This document shows positions 2,607 through 11,329 of a stretch of DNA of 45,076 nt, piece after piece (positions within the stretch are counted from its first letter, which is position 1; each line of letters starts with the position of its first letter). The position numbers were made by a program, and so were the translations under genes. Under the pieces are notes generated by a model that ran no database searches, was not told the origin of the DNA, and worked only from the letters and a program-made list of their open reading frames with translations. Source of the stretch: Brasilonema sp. UFV-L1 (GTDB lineage: Bacteria; Cyanobacteriota; Cyanobacteriia; Cyanobacteriales; Nostocaceae); contig NZ_QMEA01000040.1 in NCBI RefSeq assembly GCF_012912105.1, forward strand, positions 1 to 45,076. Reading direction: 5' to 3'.

Positions 2607-2626
2607 CGCAGCCTCCAAAGGCTGCG
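2607..2626 (+). terminator. Hairpin downstream of the 506-aa gene
   Basis: CGCAGCC, loop TCCAAA, GGCTGCG forms a perfect 7-bp GC-rich stem about 70 nt after the stop codon. No U-tract follows, so it may act as a processing or REP-like hairpin rather than an intrinsic terminator. Confidence 0.35.
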
Positions 2627-2679
2627 GTTGTGCTGCAAATTGACCACATAATCACCATCTGTGACAGGTTAGAATTTAG

Positions 2680-2979
2680 TGGTTTTGTTCAATAGCGTTA
2701 GAAACCATTTTCAACGCTTTAGATAGGCTTGAGTCGGAGTTACAAAAAAAAACTGAAGATTCGCGGCTAACCGATGCTCAAGAAGTAATCGAAGTGGCGC
2801 GACCAATTCAATCCCAAAATGTAACTATTGATGAAATTAGGCAACCAATACTTAGTAAAGGTGTAGCTAAAAACCGCCGCATTTCGAGTGATTTCAATCA
2901 CTGCGTCAGATTTTTATTGAGAATATTTATAGTAGCTGCAACAAGTACAGATTTAAAATGGGAGCAAAATTTGGCATAG
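2680..2979 (+). pseudogene. Possible gene fragment without a proper start
   Basis: One open frame runs from the stop at 2677 to 2979. Its first half has protein-like composition (LDRLESELQKKTEDSRL, then QEVIEVARPIQSQNVTIDEI). The second half does not. There is no ATG. The only candidate start is GTG at 2794, in the middle of the better-looking part. I read this as the remains of a truncated gene and cannot assign a family. The rest of 2538-3019 shows nothing more than the hairpin at 2607. Confidence 0.3.
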
Positions 2980-3019
2980 AGACTAAACTCCTCTGTGCCA
3001 CTTTCTCCAAAATGGAAGA

Positions 3020-4120
3020 TCAAAAATACGATTGAAGTGTTCCTCTTCTTCTCACATCTAGCGTTGCACAATGAAAAGAACCGCCAAAGGTATTAAAGTT
3101 ACGAAAATTGCAAGTAATTGGCTCAAATTCCAAATCTTTCATCAGTTTAATCATTGCTTCGTCTTGCTTTTCAACGATGACTCTGTTCTCATCGAGCGTC
3201 AAAAGATTCATGCCTACTCCCTTAGAACTCATATAAAGAGGATGACTGTCAGGAATACAGGATTCAGGAGCTTTTCGCACATCCCAACTTTTAAACATTT
3301 CCGGAACTTTTTCCACTTTTTTTGGATGTATTAAGAGTTTACCAGGAGCTAGAGGCACAAACGTTGCATCAATGTGCATTGCTGATTGATCCTTAAACTT
3401 GAGTTCATGGATTTTGTACTCATTTCCCAAACATCTGCGTACCCACTCTATGCCAAAACGATTGGTAACTTGACTTTGTTGCACAAAGATATCTCTACCA
3501 CATTTGGTAAACTCAGCCGCATCAAATACTGGTTCAAATTCAGTCAGTGAAGAATTGAATTCTTCATCCTCACCTGCTTCTTCATATTGATAGTTGTATA
3601 GTTCATCGCACAGTTGGGGTTTGGGTGCAGGAATCCATTGAGCACCCTGATGAAAATACTCTTTGATCAGTGAGCGATAGGCATTAATTTCAAAGTATCT
3701 AGATCGCCAAGGCATTGGAGCTTCGATCAGCTTATCCCCAATTACCATCATCACATCTCTTGGCATTGCTCCGTAGAGACCACTTGGACTTTCCCAGTCT
3801 GGGGTTGCATAAGGGCGAGTATAATTGATAGCATCAGGACGACGAACTGTTACACCTTCTGATTCCAAAATGTGAACGAGTTCTTCAAGGTCTTTTTCTC
3901 CTGCTTTTACTTGCTCTTCTGGGAATAGCTGACCACCTTTGCACCGAAAAAAATCCCAATAACGCCTTGGCATTGTTGCCTTGATTGTTACATGCCAAGG
4001 TGGTACTACTGCACCATCCAATCGACCAACAATCACTTCCTCTAGAGGATCCCATTCATTGAATGAGTTGACAACAGGTGTTGCTGGTTCTGTTAATTGT
4101 GAACTATGATTCTGCTCCAT
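3020..4120 (-). CDS. Amidinotransferase of the glycine amidinotransferase family
   Basis: This 366-aa enzyme should transfer the amidino group of arginine to an amine acceptor through a covalent Cys-amidino intermediate. The family includes vertebrate GATM and the cyanobacterial toxin enzymes CyrA (cylindrospermopsin) and SxtG (saxitoxin). Visible marks: NSFNEWDPLEEVIVG near the N-terminus, Asp200 in FDAAEF, GRDIF at 208-212, His249 in MHIDATF, and catalytic Cys351 in GGSFHCATLDVRRRG. Their spacing matches Asp254-His303-Cys407 of human GATM. The second Cys of GATM (FHCWTC) is Leu here. No polyketide or nonribosomal peptide synthase gene is present. The only close neighbour is the divergent DMT transporter, so it may make a small guanidino compound that is exported. 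The acceptor cannot be deduced. The ATG at 4120 fits the family length. Confidence 0.93.
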   Translation of the reverse strand: MEQNHSSQLTEPATPVVNSFNEWDPLEEVIVGRLDGAVVPPWHVTIKATMPRRYWDFFRCKGGQLFPEEQVKAGEKDLEELVHILESEGVTVRRPDAINYTRPYATPDWESPSGLYGAMPRDVMMVIGDKLIEAPMPWRSRYFEINAYRSLIKEYFHQGAQWIPAPKPQLCDELYNYQYEEAGEDEEFNSSLTEFEPVFDAAEFTKCGRDIFVQQSQVTNRFGIEWVRRCLGNEYKIHELKFKDQSAMHIDATFVPLAPGKLLIHPKKVEKVPEMFKSWDVRKAPESCIPDSHPLYMSSKGVGMNLLTLDENRVIVEKQDEAMIKLMKDLEFEPITCNFRNFNTFGGSFHCATLDVRRRGTLQSYF

Positions 4121-5883: not shown

Positions 5884-6839
5884 CTATCCCACTAATAAGA
5901 TCCTTTGAATCCAGATATGAATAGTAGCAAGGTCAATGAATGCATCAAAATATACTTTTTGACGTTCCCAACGAACGGCTAGACGACGGTATTTACGTTG
6001 AACACAGCGCAAAACAACGTTCCTGTTGAAATCTTGGAACGGAGATTTTAATTGGTCTACCTCTATTTTTCTTGGTTTTCCATACCCGTTTTGGTATTTG
6101 GGGTCGAATACCCCGCTTACGTAGAGCAGCACGTTTTTCCTTTGAGTCGTAACCTTTATCAGCAGCCAGTACCTTGAGTTTTTTACGCGGTCTGCCAGGT
6201 TTCAAAGTTTTAAGTTTTACTTTATCAAGCAGAGGTAATACTTGTTCTCTCTCATTACCATTGGCTGGGGTTGTGGAGTTAGCCAAAGGCATTCCATTAC
6301 CTTCAGTAAGGGTGTGAATAAGAACACCTTTACCTTTGCCCCCATACTTAACTTCTTCACCTCCTCCCTTTCCAGGGGGAAAAAGAGCCGTCAACAGCCC
6401 CAAAGTCCCAGTTTATCAGCCCCCTCTCATCAGCGATCGCTAATACACGCCCTTGTATATATTCAAATGTTCCATCTGAGCGCCATCGCTTTAACCATCG
6501 GTTACGGGGTCTAACACGTAAGAAATTGAGCCAGCCTTGGTTTGTTGATCTGTCGGCTTCCGTCGGGTACTCGTTGTTATAAGGCTGGCTCAATTTCTAG
6601 GGGACAATGCGTCGAGATGAACTTTTTGATGCCCATGTACCCCCATGTGGTAAGTCACACCATCGACACCCTGTAATCAGGATGTACAACAGACTATTTA
6701 ATACATAACGATATGGAGCATGAGGCATTCCTTTTCCACGTTTGGATGGTTCTTCGGGAAATATATCCTCAAATAGTTTCCATTCTAGGTCAGTCAATCC
6801 TTCAAAACGCCCAGCCATACACAGACACACCCTTCTCAT
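5884..6839 (-). pseudogene. IS5-family transposase, interrupted and frameshifted
   Basis: Four minus-strand fragments together make one DDE transposase. They are FEGLTDLEWKLFEDIFPEE (N-terminal DUF4096-type domain), then RWLKRWRSDGTFEYIQG, then GKGGGEEVKYGGKGKGVLIH with ADKGYDSKEKR, then RKYRRLAVRWERQKVYFDAF to the end. Three lesions separate them. The first is a 110-bp palindromic insertion at 6504-6613, whose removal restores SSSHRWLKRW. The second is a shift near 6370-6390, which may be the programmed frameshift known in related IS5 groups. The third is a 1-nt insertion near 6010 (family pattern FAWFQRKYRR). The element cannot encode an active product unless all three are bypassed. Confidence 0.85.
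6504..6613 (-). mobile_element. Palindromic element E1, inserted in the IS5 transposase gene
   Basis: This is a 110-bp insertion. Border GGGGTCTAACACGTA (6507-6521) touches an 18-bp arm (6522-6539) that is perfectly repeated in inverted form at 6581-6598. The distal border GACAATGCGTC (6603-6613) follows 4 nt later. The core at 6562-6584 starts GTCGGGTACTCG and ends TTATAAGG. Deleting exactly 6504-6613 rejoins the transposase codons as AGT TCA TCT CAC CGA TGG, which fixes the boundaries. No target-site duplication is apparent. E1 belongs with the copies near 8104 and 10727. Confidence 0.75.
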
Positions 6840-6885
6840 ACGAGAAGTAGATTATCATATTTCGGCATTAGTGGGATAGGTTCAC

Positions 6886-7942
6886 GAAACCGCAGCTAGA
6901 ACACTTCTTTGATGATGGATAAAACCTATCAACCAACTCAACTCGACCACCAGCCCAACGCCGCTTTGTAGACCAGTTGACGTCGAAATTCCCCAAAGCC
7001 TTGATCAGTAATAGCAGATGATAACTTGCCAAACTGGATCATCCCTTTGACGTTCAAGTCTTCTAAGCGAATAACGCTGTGACATGTAGCAAGTTCAGTT
7101 GAGCTTTTGTGCAAAAAATCGTTTCTAACGTTAGAAATTCTGCCATGAGTTCTAGCAAGTCGCTTGAAATATTTCTTGGCGTTATTAGACGGCACGATAT
7201 ATATTTTTTTGCGCTTGCCTAAGTTTGGATCATCAATCCACTTGCTTCCCAATACCTTGTTTTTATTGCGCCACTGAAGTCGTCTAAGCTTGGTTTTCGC
7301 TTTCTTGTAAGGTTGTGGCGATTCATATACATTGTCACCCAACTCATGGGTATGAACCGTAGCAAAGCATTTAACACCCAAATCTACGCCACATCTTTCC
7401 CACTTATTATGACTTGGAATGGGTAATTTTTCAGCACAAAGCGCAAAAGATACATACCATTCACCTGCTTGTTCGCTTAGGGTGAATGTTTGGGACACAT
7501 AACTACAATCTAATGGTTCATGGAGCCGAAATGTGCCAAGAGTAGGTATCTTGATTTTGTTACCGGCTTCAAGCAATACTTTGCCATTACAAGCATCAAC
7601 GGTGAATGACTTACCATCTTTGCGTTTCTTGAATTTAGGAGCTTGTGCTCTACCTTCACGCCAGTTAATAAATGCCTTTTTCAAGGCAATAAACGCATTG
7701 GAGTAGATACGAGATGAGTAGTCATTACACCAGCGATATTTATGGGTCTTCTTGGTGTGGTTGGTGAATACTTTCTTGATAGTATCTAATACTTTTGTAT
7801 TACCCCCAGTGCCGCCATCTCGACGATACTCGGTGAATAATCCCAGTCGGTAGTTGTAGACAAAGCGAGAATAACCAGCACAACCATTAAAGAAGGTCTT
7901 TTCTTTGTTATTCAGCTTTAACCTACGCTTGACGGCGAACAT
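6886..7942 (-). pseudogene. tnpB: tnpB (RNA-guided nuclease family), frameshifted and truncated
   Basis: This is a TnpB/Fanzor-type transposon nuclease, ancestral to Cas12. It starts at ATG 7942 (MFAVKRRLKLNNKEK). RuvC-I lies in GVDLGVKCFATV and RuvC-II in IRLEDLNVKGMI. An extra T on the minus strand (around 6957) shifts the frame and gives an early stop at 6938. Without it the reading continues as YKAAWAGGRVELVDRFYPSS and then KKCSSCG, the start of the zinc finger, where the IS5 end at 6885 cuts it off. The second CxxC pair and the last catalytic Asp are missing, so the protein should be dead. A tnpA relic lies just upstream. Confidence 0.9.
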
Positions 7943-7979
7943 GGGATTTCTCCTTAGTAATATAGTAGATTATACATAG

Positions 7980-8102
7980 CTAAGGCAACGGTTTTCCGGA
8001 TTCATAAACCATCTTTTTTATCTCTTTTTTATAGCGACGTAGTCCGTACAGCCTGCAACTAAAGCAGTGAATGATTGACATCAAATCTTCTGTTAACTCT
8101 TG
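7980..8102 (-). pseudogene. C-terminal relic of a transposon serine recombinase (IS607 TnpA-like)
   Basis: The minus-strand frame reads QELTEDLMSIIHCFSCRLYG then LRRYKKEIKKMVYESGKPLP and a stop at 7980. This resembles the C-terminus of IS607-type TnpA resolvases, where an ED-L-sIi-sF-aRlYG-R pattern is usual. It lies 37 nt upstream of tnpB, as expected for an IS607 element. Everything upstream is replaced by the E2 palindromic element, so only about 40 codons remain. Confidence 0.6.
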
Positions 8103-8103
8103 G

Positions 8104-8209
8104 TCACGGGGTCTTACACGTATCAAAAATGGGGAGGGTTTATACGATAACTCGTCTAGTCCCCATGATGAATCGTGGGGCTTGGAACCCTCCCCATTTT
8201 TGAAGTGTC
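8104..8209 (-). mobile_element. Palindromic element E2
   Basis: Border GGGGTCTTACACGTA (8108-8122) is followed two bases later by a 16-bp arm AAAAATGGGGAGGGTT (8125-8140). This arm is perfectly repeated in inverted form at 8186-8201. The 45-nt core holds its own palindrome CCCCATGATGAATCGTGGGG (8161-8180), which looks like an IS200/IS605 end hairpin. The core differs from those of E1 and E3. GAAGTGTC (8202-8209) is a weak match to their distal border. E2 sits at the junction between the tnpA relic and the broken intron maturase. Outer boundaries are approximate. Confidence 0.6.
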
Positions 8210-8433
8210 TTTTTACCAGTATTGTCTTGTGTTACCCTTCTAACCGCTAGTAACCTATTCGACCATGACCTCATTAATGTTTGCTGAAGTTTACGGACTC
8301 GCTTGAGATCACCACAACGTGAAGCGGCGTAGATGCGTTTTTGCAACTTAAAGACGTATTTCTCGACTTTGCGCCAATTAATACTTCTCCATCCCTCAGT
8401 ATTCTCGATGAAATCTGACTTAGGCGTATTCAT
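8206..8433 (-). pseudogene. ltrA: N-terminal fragment of a group II intron reverse transcriptase/maturase
   Basis: ATG at 8433 opens MNTPKSDFIENTEGWRSINW, followed by VEKYVFKLQKRIYAA and NRLLAVRRVTQDNTGKK. This is the characteristic start of chloroplast-like (CL) intron-encoded proteins, just before the first RT motifs. The frame then runs into the E2 palindrome and stops at 8140, so the RT, maturase and endonuclease domains are all gone. The fragment cannot support splicing or mobility by itself. Confidence 0.85.
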
Positions 8434-9127
8434 TACTACTTACACCCCTAGCTCTATCCACATTGCGGGTTACGTCTGCTTATCCCGGACATTACTCCAT
8501 CCCTTTTGGGGCTTTAACCGTTACTTCGGTTTGGGCGTTTGCTTCTTAACCCATCCCTCCCAAATAGAGCTTTTAGCCTGACCGCCTACCTATGTATCGA
8601 CCGCCATAGGAGCTATAATTTGGGTTACTTCGTTCCTGATATCCATTGTTTTGAGTATGCGCGGGGATGCCTATCCACCGGGGGTCTAGGAAGTGCGCTG
8701 TTTCGGTTGCAAGAACCTAACAGTCCTTACCCTATCGGTTATTTCCGCTCCCTTGGTGTGTCCGAAACACAAGCTTATATCCCTTGGTGAGATATGACGA
8801 TGGCGAGGGCGACATTTCGCTTACTCTCCCCATGAACTCTTGCTTGCGGTTGGCGCTTTCAGCAATTACCACCATTAACCGCTTTCATCCCCGCTTTACG
8901 AATTTGATAGTCGGTCGCCTCCGTAGGGGCTACCATTATTGGTAGTTTATGTGCTTTCAACCCCGCACCAGGGCGGTAGGGTTTAGTTTTCTAGGTTACT
9001 CACTTCACCTACATGGATATCAAGTTGTCATCGATAGAGGATTAAAGTGCGGACTCAATCTGGATTGGTTACTCTATCAATGCCTGGAATCCCCCCAGGT
9101 TATGGGTTTCTCCAGAACGAATCGCAC
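8434..9127 (-). ncRNA. 5' part of a group II intron (domains I to IV start)
   Basis: The minus strand begins GTGCGATTCG at 9127, the GUGYG-type 5' end of group II introns. About 690 nt of structured GC-richer RNA then leads to the maturase start at 8433. No domain V/VI sequence exists downstream because the intron is truncated at E2. The short plus-strand ORFs across 8333-9164 are shadows of this RNA. The class is inferred from the maturase fragment, probably CL type (IIB-like). Confidence 0.75.
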
Positions 9128-9151
9128 TTACACGTATCTCGGCTCAATGCC
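9128..9151 (-). other. 5' exon flank of the group II intron
   Basis: On the minus strand these 24 nt end in TACGTGTAA immediately before the intron 5' end, and are identical to 2514-2537. A small hairpin (ACGTAT/ATACGT) can form across this exon and its upstream flank. Exon-binding pairings cannot be assigned by eye. Confidence 0.55.
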
Positions 9152-9305
9152 TATACGTAATTGAATTAACTTGGCAAAAATTGAGTAAAACAGTACACAG
9201 TCCTGCCTACGTATGATGGAGGGACAGTTACTCAAGTGATGAAACTGATAACTGATAACTGTATAAAGAAGAAAGTACAACAACTCTTTGCTAAATGCGA
9301 TAAAC

Positions 9306-10094
9306 ATGACTAACCATGACCAGTGGTGGAAACAACTACTGTTGGACGTAGGATCATCTGTGACATTCTATACTATTATACCGCTGCCGTATGTCAAGGG
9401 GTTATACTTTAGGAGGGTATCCCGGCTCGCTCCACAGGTAGGGTTAATCATTGGGGGAATTTTAGGGCTATTTGATACTGGCATGATTTCTTTGGGTGTG
9501 CCGACACTGACTCGTAGCGTTCTGGTGGTATGTCTTTGGATTGCGATGACTGGTGGATTGCATTTAGATGGAGCAATGGATACTGCGGATGGCTTAGCAG
9601 TAGGTGATCCAAAACGCCGACTGGAGGTTATGGCAGATAGTGCGACAGGTGCATTTGGCGCAATGGTAGCAATAGTTTTAGTGTTAATGAAAACAGCAGC
9701 TTTGACAGATTTAGGGAAAAACCGTTGGTTGATTTTGATGGCTGCTTGTGGGTGGGGACGCTGGGGTCAACAAGTAGCAATTTTTCGGTATCCTTACCTA
9801 AAAGCAACTGGTAAAGGCGCATTTCACAAACAAGCCATTTGTTCTTATGAAGATTTGTTACCAGGATTGTTATTGATGATAGGTTTAAGTACTTTACAAG
9901 TCGTGTTCGATAAACAGCGTTTATTGACTGCTTTAGCAACGATACTTGCTGGAAGTGCGATCGCCACTCTAACTGGTGCCTGGTTTCACTATAAATTAGG
10001 TGGACATACAGGAGATACCTACGGCGCAGTTGTTGAGTGGACTGAAGCTTTATTTCTTTGTATGCTCACTGCTTTAGAAAAGTATGAATTATAA
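9306..10094 (+). CDS. cobS: Adenosylcobinamide-GDP ribazoletransferase (cobalamin synthase)
   Basis: This integral membrane enzyme joins adenosylcobinamide-GDP to alpha-ribazole in the last steps of cobalamin or pseudocobalamin synthesis. The family marks are clear: [15 protein letters not shown] with its Asp-rich metal-binding segment, [10 protein letters not shown] about 20 residues later, and [14 protein letters not shown] near the C-terminus, separated by hydrophobic helices. I chose ATG 9306 (MTNHDQWW, 262 aa). A TTG at 9288 would add six residues with no better ribosome site. The gene stands alone after the mobile-element region. No cobalamin riboswitch is visible in the short upstream spacer. 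Confidence 0.93.
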
Positions 10095-10147
10095 CTATCA
10101 AAAAGTTTTGTGGTTGAAAAATTTGCAATAATTTACAACTCATAATT

Positions 10148-10627
10148 TTATTTAGCTGGTTGTAGCCGTGTCACCTTCAGTTTAAAAGTTCCAATTCCAG
10201 TTTCTCCAAAAGACCGGACGCGAATGACATAATGACCTGTTTCTGCTACGCGGGTAAAAAGTAGGGAATTGCTGGTACCATCAGGACCATCATCATTTTC
10301 TGCCAGTGTTGTTCCATTGGGTGCCAGCAGTGTGATCATACAGTCAAAACTCTCAGAGACTAGATCAATTACCAGATTATCGCCCTTATTTAACTTCACC
10401 ATGTAATCACGGGCAAATCCGCCTTGACCTGTGGGAATGTCTTTGTCAGAGAGTGTATCAGTCAGTTCATTACCAACAGGTATAGGCATTGGATTATAAA
10501 ATTTATTAGCTTGAGCAAATGCTGCTGTTGTACTGATAGCAATTGCTAGTAACGTGGCAGGAATGATTGTAACTTGTTTCAATCCCACAGCCAGACCCTT
10601 ATTGATCATCCCAAAGATTATTTCCAC
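10148..10627 (-). CDS. Secreted PPC-domain protein
   Basis: This 159-aa protein has an N-terminal signal peptide (hydrophobic VTIIPATLLAIAISTTAAFA, cleavage likely after AFAQA). It is followed by one bacterial pre-peptidase C-terminal (PPC) beta domain. Supporting features are YMVKLNKGDNLVIDLVSESF, LLAPNGTTLAENDDG and GHYVIRVRSFGETGIGTFKL. Such domains often sit on secreted proteases, but here the domain stands alone, so it is a periplasmic or extracellular protein of unknown role. An internal ATG at 10609 is an alternative start. It is convergent with cobS and looks monocistronic. Confidence 0.85.
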   Translation of the reverse strand: MEIIFGMINKGLAVGLKQVTIIPATLLAIAISTTAAFAQANKFYNPMPIPVGNELTDTLSDKDIPTGQGGFARDYMVKLNKGDNLVIDLVSESFDCMITLLAPNGTTLAENDDGPDGTSNSLLFTRVAETGHYVIRVRSFGETGIGTFKLKVTRLQPAK

Positions 10628-10726
10628 AAAAACAGAGTCATCTGGTTAATTATAGTTTTATTAAGTAGAATTTGCCTATCAAGGCATAGCGGGAGAGTGA
10701 GAACCCCTGCCTTTTAAGGAGGGGCG

Positions 10727-10945
10727 GGGGTCTTACACGTAAAAAATTCGGGCAACACGCCAGGTGCTACAACGGGGGGAACCCCCCGATAGCGCAGCGT
10801 GCCCGTAGGGCATAGCTTTGATCGGAGGAAACCTCCGCTCAAACAACTCTTGGCAACGCACTGGCTCCTTATTACAACGAGTACCCGACTTGAAAGACAG
10901 ATAAACATTACAAAGGTTGCCCGAATTTTTCGCTGACTTTGCGTC
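10727..10945 (-). mobile_element. Palindromic element E3
   Basis: Border GGGGTCTTACACGTA (10727-10741) touches a 15-bp arm AAAAATTCGGGCAAC (10742-10756), perfectly repeated in inverted form at 10916-10930. The distal border GACTTTGCGTC (10935-10945) follows 4 nt later. The core 10867-10889 (starts CCTTATTACAACG, ends GTACCCGAC) matches the E1 core in the opposite orientation with one mismatch in 23, and similarity continues into the flanking GACAGAT-AACA. About 110 bp with two GC-rich palindromes is inserted between the left arm and the core. Confidence 0.7.
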
Positions 10946-11329
10946 GGATGAAACTCGACACGGAGGACTTTAGTCCGCCGTTTCTCTTTCAGGTATTTGG
11001 CAACAAAAAAGAAAAATCTGCGACAATATTAATTAAGCGCACAGGTAGGGGTGACGACCTATGCAGGATATCCATAACTGGACTCCGAGGGCAGAAACGT
11101 AGCCAATTGTTTAATTGGTTCGCCTTGTGGAAAGCTCTGGGGAGGGACGCTTCGGTGGAGGGTAAATAAGTTGCCTGTGGAGGCGGTGAGACCAGCGCTG
11201 CGGGAGGGTTTCCCTCATGTGCCACTTCTGTGCGGGGGTTCCCCCCGTTGAAGAATGTGGCGTCAGGCGACTGGCGAACCCGGAGGGTCTGGCGGGGATG
11301 TGAGACACGGGTTGAGGATCTAGTTAAGA

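Follow-up and report, generated by a model that had tools for sequence, protein, structure and literature searches.

A dispersed family of mobile palindromic elements with constant borders and variable, matched arms in Brasilonema and its relatives

Three palindromic elements on one contig

The 45,076-nt contig NZ_QMEA01000040.1 of the cyanobacterium Brasilonema sp. UFV-L1 (the window, meaning the whole stretch analysed; the source genome is a draft of 8.31 Mb in 337 contigs) carries three palindromic elements, E1, E2 and E3, which share the border motif GGGGTCTWACACGTA. The motif starts at positions 6506, 8108 and 10727, and a perfect inverted repeat lies directly 3' of each copy, with arms of 18 bp in E1 (6521-6538/6581-6598) and E2 (8123-8140/8186-8203) and of 15 bp in E3 (10742-10756/10916-10930), which confirmed the three border copies with perfect 15-18 bp repeats described in the first-pass annotation. 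A search of the window for the motif with up to two mismatches returned three matches, compared to a mean of 0.08 in shuffled sequences, none of which (0/100) reached three. The distal motif GACWWTGCGTC had been placed 4 nt past the second arm of E1 and E3, and it was indeed found there (6603-6613 and 10935-10945), but the usual second border of the family proved to be (A/C)GGGGACAATGCGTC. When searched alone with one mismatch, the distal motif had four matches in the window (shuffle mean 2.08; 16 of 100 shuffles reached four) and was thus not above chance, so that its weight lies in its fixed place. The window sequence of E2 contains neither this motif nor a second border. E1 is canonical and E3 a variant, and E2 has lost its second border:

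6503..6613, + strand: E1, canonical type I element (TACGGGG...TGCGTC, 111 bp) within an IS4/5-type transposase gene, identified by uninterrupted homologous sites
6503..6520, + strand: 5' border of E1 (motif match), in which TACG can base-pair with CGTA at the base of the large hairpin (predicted fold)
6521..6538, + strand: left arm of E1 (inverted-repeat match)
6539..6580, + strand: loop of E1, 42 nt, type a in forward orientation (loop typing)
6581..6598, + strand: right arm of E1, matching the left arm perfectly (inverted-repeat match)
6599..6613, + strand: 3' border of E1, AGGGGACAATGCGTC (motif match)
8106..8205, + strand: E2, 5' border and 18-bp arms, 3' border gone; by eye, the loop is a second loop type in reverse
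10725..10945, + strand: E3, 5' border, 15-bp arms, enlarged loop and variant 3' border CGCTGACTTTGCGTC

Folds predicted for the DNA strand gave z-scores of -5.6 for E1 and -7.5 for E2, and the predicted fold of E1 includes short pairings of its ends (TACG with CGTA and GAC with GTC). In IS608 a guide pairs with the cleavage site, and the end pairings predicted for E1 could recall this arrangement, although at only 3-4 bp they may have arisen by chance. At the gathering score, Rfam had no match in the whole window.

All neighbouring genes listed here were assigned by domain matches:

5993..6403, - strand: piece of the E1-interrupted transposase (DDE_Tnp_1)
6597..6839, - strand: other piece of this transposase (DUF4096), its frame terminating within E1
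6938..7942, - strand: tnpB-like gene (OrfB_IS605) between E1 and E2, link to the element not shown
8140..8433, - strand: reverse transcriptase N-terminal domain (RVT_N), its frame terminating in E2

The segment 8207-9147 of the window has a homolog at G000:C159 (G-numbers denote genomes and L-numbers loci). The site of E3 is uninterrupted in a homolog at L079 (76% identical). E3 sits at GG between two small hairpins (window 10690-11000), within a repeat that ends in CGGATGAAA and recurs in many loci; by eye, this repeat resembles an IS605-type tail.

The family in the source genome and its relatives

The proposal of a family with constant borders and variable but matched arms, its border neither rare nor unlinked to arms, was borne out by a search of the source genome. 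An exact GGGGTCTWACACGTA was found 54 times, compared to no match for the reversed control, and all 54 copies were inspected with their flanks; 44 of them had a second border together with pairing at 7 or more of the first 10 arm positions. Elements are usually organised as (T)AC-GGGGTCTWACACGTA, an arm of mostly 15-19 bp, about 42 nt of loop, the second arm and (A/C)GGGGACAATGCGTC, the commonest second border, of which the CGCTGACTTTGCGTC of E3 is a minority form. The whole element measures about 110 bp and its ends are constant. By eye, the outer ends ACGGGG and TGCGTC are no inverted repeats of each other. At position -3 the left flank falls into two classes, with A in 53 and C in 44 of the 106 distinct elements described below. 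A common right flank, TCACCAA, was seen in 8 of 91 elements (L029, L055, L120, L135, L136, L140, L183 and L193), which hints at a longer target preference.

Within the Nostocaceae, the first border occurred in 12 of 192 genomes, namely in all 7 of the genus of the window and in 5 of 185 others. The reversed-border control matched once each in 2 of these 192 genomes, and a genome with a single match, such as G063, may therefore represent chance. All 91 paired elements came from genomes of the same family as the source, only Scytonema, Brasilonema and a few further genomes; single border matches also occurred in unrelated bacteria and archaea, with no paired element there among the matches listed. 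A search for the two-border pattern gave 25 occurrences in the source genome and none in 387 others drawn from the order, a result that speaks only for the drawn genomes, because none of the other 11 carriers was among them. Three plasmid matches to E1 were obtained, two in Brasilonema octagenarum UFV-E1 and one, partial and weak (66% covered, E 2e-3), in Scytonema NIES-4073, while a comparison of E1 with phages gave no match.

For the analysis of the arms, 186 border candidates (including chance matches from unrelated genomes) were collected; in 119 of them a second border lay no more than 300 nt away, and in 67 there was none. Ten of the 119 fell below a floor of 9/14 pairs, and the 109 retained correspond to 106 distinct elements, 50 of them from the source genome. 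These 106 elements contain 58 different 12-base arm starts. All first 12 pairs were Watson-Crick in 93 of 106 elements, compared to a mean of 2.7 and a maximum of 8 in 200 partner shuffles, a figure that is somewhat flattering, as the best of four arm starts and of all second borders was taken and the shuffle was made without that choice. Among 1272 arm cells, 1247 were Watson-Crick, 4 G:T, 6 A:C and 15 other; given that G:T pairs are not in excess, the pairing looks kept as DNA rather than as RNA. The arms had been described as different in every copy, and they do differ, but as variations on one theme and not as unrelated sequences. A search with the loop motif that ignored the borders gave 148 hits, with a perfect 14-bp arm in 70, 11-13 matches in 16 and 10 or fewer in 62. 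The 62 low hits are mostly chance matches of the loose motif, yet at least two of them (L006 and L042) are genuine elements whose loops are enlarged. Of the 70 perfect-arm hits, 18 had a single type I border or none, in some cases because other borders were present.

The loop occurs in both orientations. The commonest loop, type a, was assigned to 49 of 61 canonical elements (27 in forward and 22 in reverse orientation), and the other 12 are of other types or undecided. In 8 of 15 loop pairs with at least 90% identity (the pairs being non-independent) the orientations were opposite, which suggests that flipping outpaces loop sequence change. L006 and L062 share their 15-bp arm and lie between homologous flanks, with opposite loops; the loop of L006 is enlarged and was judged by eye. 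The same arm and similar loops were also found in L198, L098 and L037, with L198 in the opposite orientation. A comparable case for the arms is provided by L060 and L071, whose flanks are 86-87% alike over 394 and 493 bp; by eye, their arms differ at several pairs, and a one-base difference is present in both arms.

Type I borders were missing from 12 of 84 hairpins found via the main loop type. Other border pairs were GGGGTTCCGACTGG...CCCAAGTGCG (pair II; L035 and L266), CGGAGCCTGATCCTG...TGCGGCAAATTCGA (pair IV; L029, L281 and L072, two genomes), a pair resembling GTCGAGGTCTCTGTA...AGACAAAGTGCG (pair V; L128 and L200, by eye) and GGGACTAAGCGACA...CTAGCAGGATGCGA (pair III), which was seen once only, nested in a type I element (L016). 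Elements nested in or adjoining others, of their own or a different border class, were observed at L016, L029 (-), L045 and L050 (-). The same hairpin core between at least three other border pairs suggests a modular superfamily. A tentative extension of this idea is that, in filamentous cyanobacteria, one flipping cassette with self-correcting hypervariable arms is combined with at least four border pairs and moves in the form of a folded single strand.

Insertion sites and the search for a mover

The comparison of occupied with empty sites proposed in the first-pass annotation could be made for E1 and others. E1 splits the IS4/5-type transposase gene, and uninterrupted homologs of its site were found at eight loci in the source genome and relatives (L157, L162, L164, L166, L169, L176, L111 and L211). 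The site of L034 is uninterrupted in six relatives. Identical elements lie in different places at L012/L034 and at L021/L032; L020 and L031 are identical with partly shared flanks, and L028 and L048 are nearly identical. Empty homologous sites together with identical copies in different places indicate that E1 and others are insertions and that the family is mobile. Insertion took place as a single unit of about 110 bp with the order (T)ACGGGGTCTWACACGTA - arm - loop - arm' - (A/C)GGGGACAATGCGTC, copies of which have spread to different places.

To read the junctions, the joined flanks of 91 elements were compared with the comparison DNA, which gave continuous homologs of 67-94% identity for 29 elements in 71 rows; these are homologous sites and not exact ancestral ones. 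The junctions of 19 of the 29 were readable, while L006, L017, L029-, L030, L043, L044, L050, L062, L079 and L082 were left out as too diverged or ambiguous. At eight loci (L001, L019, L034, L094, L111, L180, L203 and L211; L034 with one extra G, L111 and L211 in paralogous places, and L094 with a 72% homolog) the extra sequence was ACGGGG...TGCGTC with nothing repeated. Seven of these eight junctions lie at TC|A and are equally compatible with a TCA or TCAC duplication; only L203 discriminates between blunt insertion and TCA duplication. No duplication was seen at E1 and L018, which have one more T on the left. In contrast to these sites, L011, L014/L074/L132, L007, E3 and L130 lie at GG with GG repeated, and at L098 and L029+ at least G is repeated, a TGA duplication being possible. 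Matches on both sides were TGAC at L021 and L032 and TTAC at L054, and a loose count of equal bases on both sides gave four bases in 14 of 91 elements and three in 36 of 91; the TGAC and TTAC sites and the 14 elements favour a short duplication. The AC or TAC of the left flank is missing from the uninterrupted homologs of L203 and E1. Overall, target duplication ranges from 0 to 4 bp by site, with no one fixed length. A fixed GTCA(C) duplication, our first reading, fits many other copies but fails at L203, E1 and L018.

The first-pass annotation had pointed to derivatives of the insertion sequence (IS) family IS200/IS605. Twelve Y1_Tnp loci of the draft genome were scanned over about 1.5 kb on each side; a border pair was present near three of them, but in none of the 12 was the Y1 gene enclosed by one. 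The assembled DNA thus gives no support for this assignment, although such an IS may lie in the unassembled part. The Y1 transposases were rejected as partners, having only copies nearby. In two of the three cases (L290 and L291) the element sits within another transposon gene. At L290 an open tnpB-like frame of 492 aa (2621-4099, + strand), which matches Cas12f1-like_TNB and, slightly below the cut-off, OrfB_IS605, contains an in-frame type I element (3429-3535). At L291:2855-4381 (- strand) a type I element lies between frames matching successive parts of DDE_5 and splits the transposase. At L281:1348-1860 (+ strand) the N-terminal part of a Y1 transposase frame contains an in-frame class IV hairpin. 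A long border span at C321:36100-37880 was considered as an autonomous parent, but it also matches the flank of L017 and was read as an element into which another mobile element has inserted. Among the border pairs and Y1 loci examined in the draft genome, no mobilising enzyme was found.

Known systems and competing explanations

Several known systems resemble the family in part. Rickettsia palindromic elements (RPE) are reported as small dispersed palindromes that lie in frame in genes (PMC10969869). The type I copy in the L290 frame and the class IV hairpin in the L281 frame are similar in this respect. We know of no RPE with constant borders, hypervariable matched arms and a two-way loop, the comparison being one of descriptions and not of sequences. 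Dispersed hairpins, known as double-hairpin or repetitive hairpin elements, also occur in the mitochondria of Allomyces and of sponges, and flanking duplications are reported to be lacking in Allomyces (PMC2800124). These elements, again likened by description, reside in organelle genomes, and in the sponge types described in that work the stems are reported as conserved while the loops vary, the reverse of the present family. The repetitive extragenic palindromes (REP), REPINs and GTAG/CGTC repeats are likewise dispersed palindromes, and the 3' border described here ends in GCGTC. CGTC repeats are reported to lack an adjoining dedicated transposase and to have stems of 8-9 bp, loops of 4-5 nt and the tag at the stem (PMC3733652), whereas the present family has stems of mostly 15-19 bp and loops of about 42 nt, with GTC at a distance of 12-15 nt from the stem. 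A REP is a stem-loop of 20-40 bp with a tag at the stem foot, in contrast to an element of about 110 bp.

Palindrome-associated elements of the IS200/IS605 type share with the family the lack of a fixed-length duplication and, possibly, a guide-like pairing at the hairpin foot; unlike them, the family has one long perfect stem that varies, no single left flank and no enclosed Y1 gene. The ends of a palindrome-associated transposable element (PATE) match a Y1-carrying IS, but no such match was found at the 12 Y1_Tnp loci. A PATE has a fixed 4-5 nt target as its left flank, whereas two left-flank classes were seen here, and it inserts without duplication, which holds at L203, E1 and L018, is ambiguous at the seven TC|A copies and contrasts with GG or G repeated at nine. 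For miniature inverted-repeat transposable elements (MITE), the ends are inverted repeats, which those of the present element are not, and the duplication varies here from 0 to 4 bp by site. Membership of IS200/IS605, REP or MITE is thus not supported, and no description of these borders was found in the literature library searched, which lacks most subscription papers and in which borders are not searchable as sequence.

We consider it probable that these are non-autonomous mobile palindromic elements in which template switching equalises the arms and flips the loop, perhaps together with selection for a folded DNA strand. A trans-acting enzyme would move the element, probably via a folded single DNA strand, and the ends would be joined bluntly, aided by short stretches of similarity to the target, or with a short duplication of variable length. 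In a resident copy, polymerase template switching between the arms would keep them identical and invert the loop, and a change in one arm would be either reversed or transferred to the other. In yeast, template switching between inverted repeats is reported to homogenise the arms and to invert the spacer reversibly (PMC8604942), and comparable patterns were inferred for genes of rRNA and microRNA, loop inversions being reported from bacteria as well (PMC8794818). Template switching could explain, without selection, the match within copies, the difference between copies and the near-even loop orientations. The selection for structure put forward in the first-pass annotation therefore stands as one of two explanations, given that template switching also equalises arms and that the loop occurs in both orientations.

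Some observations weigh against template switching as the full account, besides the generous scoring of the arms mentioned above. In 31 non-independent close pairs, loop identity was 0.903 and arm identity 0.778, and arms that diverge more than loops are not predicted by plain homogenisation unless loops are constrained or arms exchanged. At 8 of 15 positions, more than 90% of the changed pairs retain their strong/weak class, a hint of selection on stability. The loops of about 42 nt are far longer than those of the cited studies (2-5 changed positions; 4-8 nt). In-place arm change rests on few pairs (L060/L071 and L022/L087), which could also be separate insertions or replacements, and separate insertions are possible for L006/L062 as well because their flank is itself repeated. 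Folded-strand selection or arm exchange between copies may add to template switching.

An alternative explanation, which we regard as possible but rather unlikely, is that a Y1/HUH-type transposase recognises the folded single strand, so that only well-paired copies transpose while the arm sequence is free. In this case (T)ACG would be the cleavage site and would be paired with CGTA at the base of the hairpin, as guide and cleavage site are in IS608. The predicted folds of E1 and E2, the 12 Y1_Tnp genes, the lack of a G:T excess, the retained strong/weak class at 8 of 15 positions and the absence of a duplication of fixed length are all in line with it. However, borders in the scanned stretches enclose no Y1 gene, the left flank is not a single tetranucleotide (A 53 and C 44 of 106 at -3) and the uninterrupted homologs of L203 and E1 lack the adjoining AC or TAC. 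Perfect arms also occur in copies that do not have both type I borders, and loop flipping is left unexplained.

Far less probable is a structured RNA, either as an RNA gene or through reverse transcription of a hairpin RNA, with arms covarying for the RNA fold. Covariation is indeed two-sided, the junctions have no fixed duplication, E2 terminates the frame of a reverse transcriptase domain, and an RNA intermediate was proposed for the Allomyces elements from their missing flanking duplications (PMC2800124). This reading was set aside mainly because G:T pairs are lacking (4/1272, not above the 6 A:C); the loop also occurs both ways round, and Rfam gave no match in the window. An ordinary MITE, derived by deletion from a DDE transposon and having inverted repeats at its termini and a 3-4 bp duplication (TCA, TGA, TCAC or TTAC), is similarly improbable. 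Size and copy number would fit, as would the TC|A sites, at which TCA or TCAC duplication does as well as blunt insertion, the TGAC and TTAC flanks of L021, L032 and L054 and the loose counts of equal bases (14/91 and 36/91). However, the inverted repeats are set 15 nt in from the ends and vary from copy to copy, the outer ends do not mirror each other by eye, L203, E1 and L018 are without duplication, and others repeat GG.

The family is an addition to the mobile hairpins. Ever-changing perfect stems are usually taken as selection for structure, and the present case is a caution that covariation alone is not proof of a functional RNA. With about 100 natural copies, empty sites and both loop orientations, it offers a bacterial test of selection versus a purely mutational cause, template switching, and is well suited to studying how palindromic DNA moves and keeps its arms matched.

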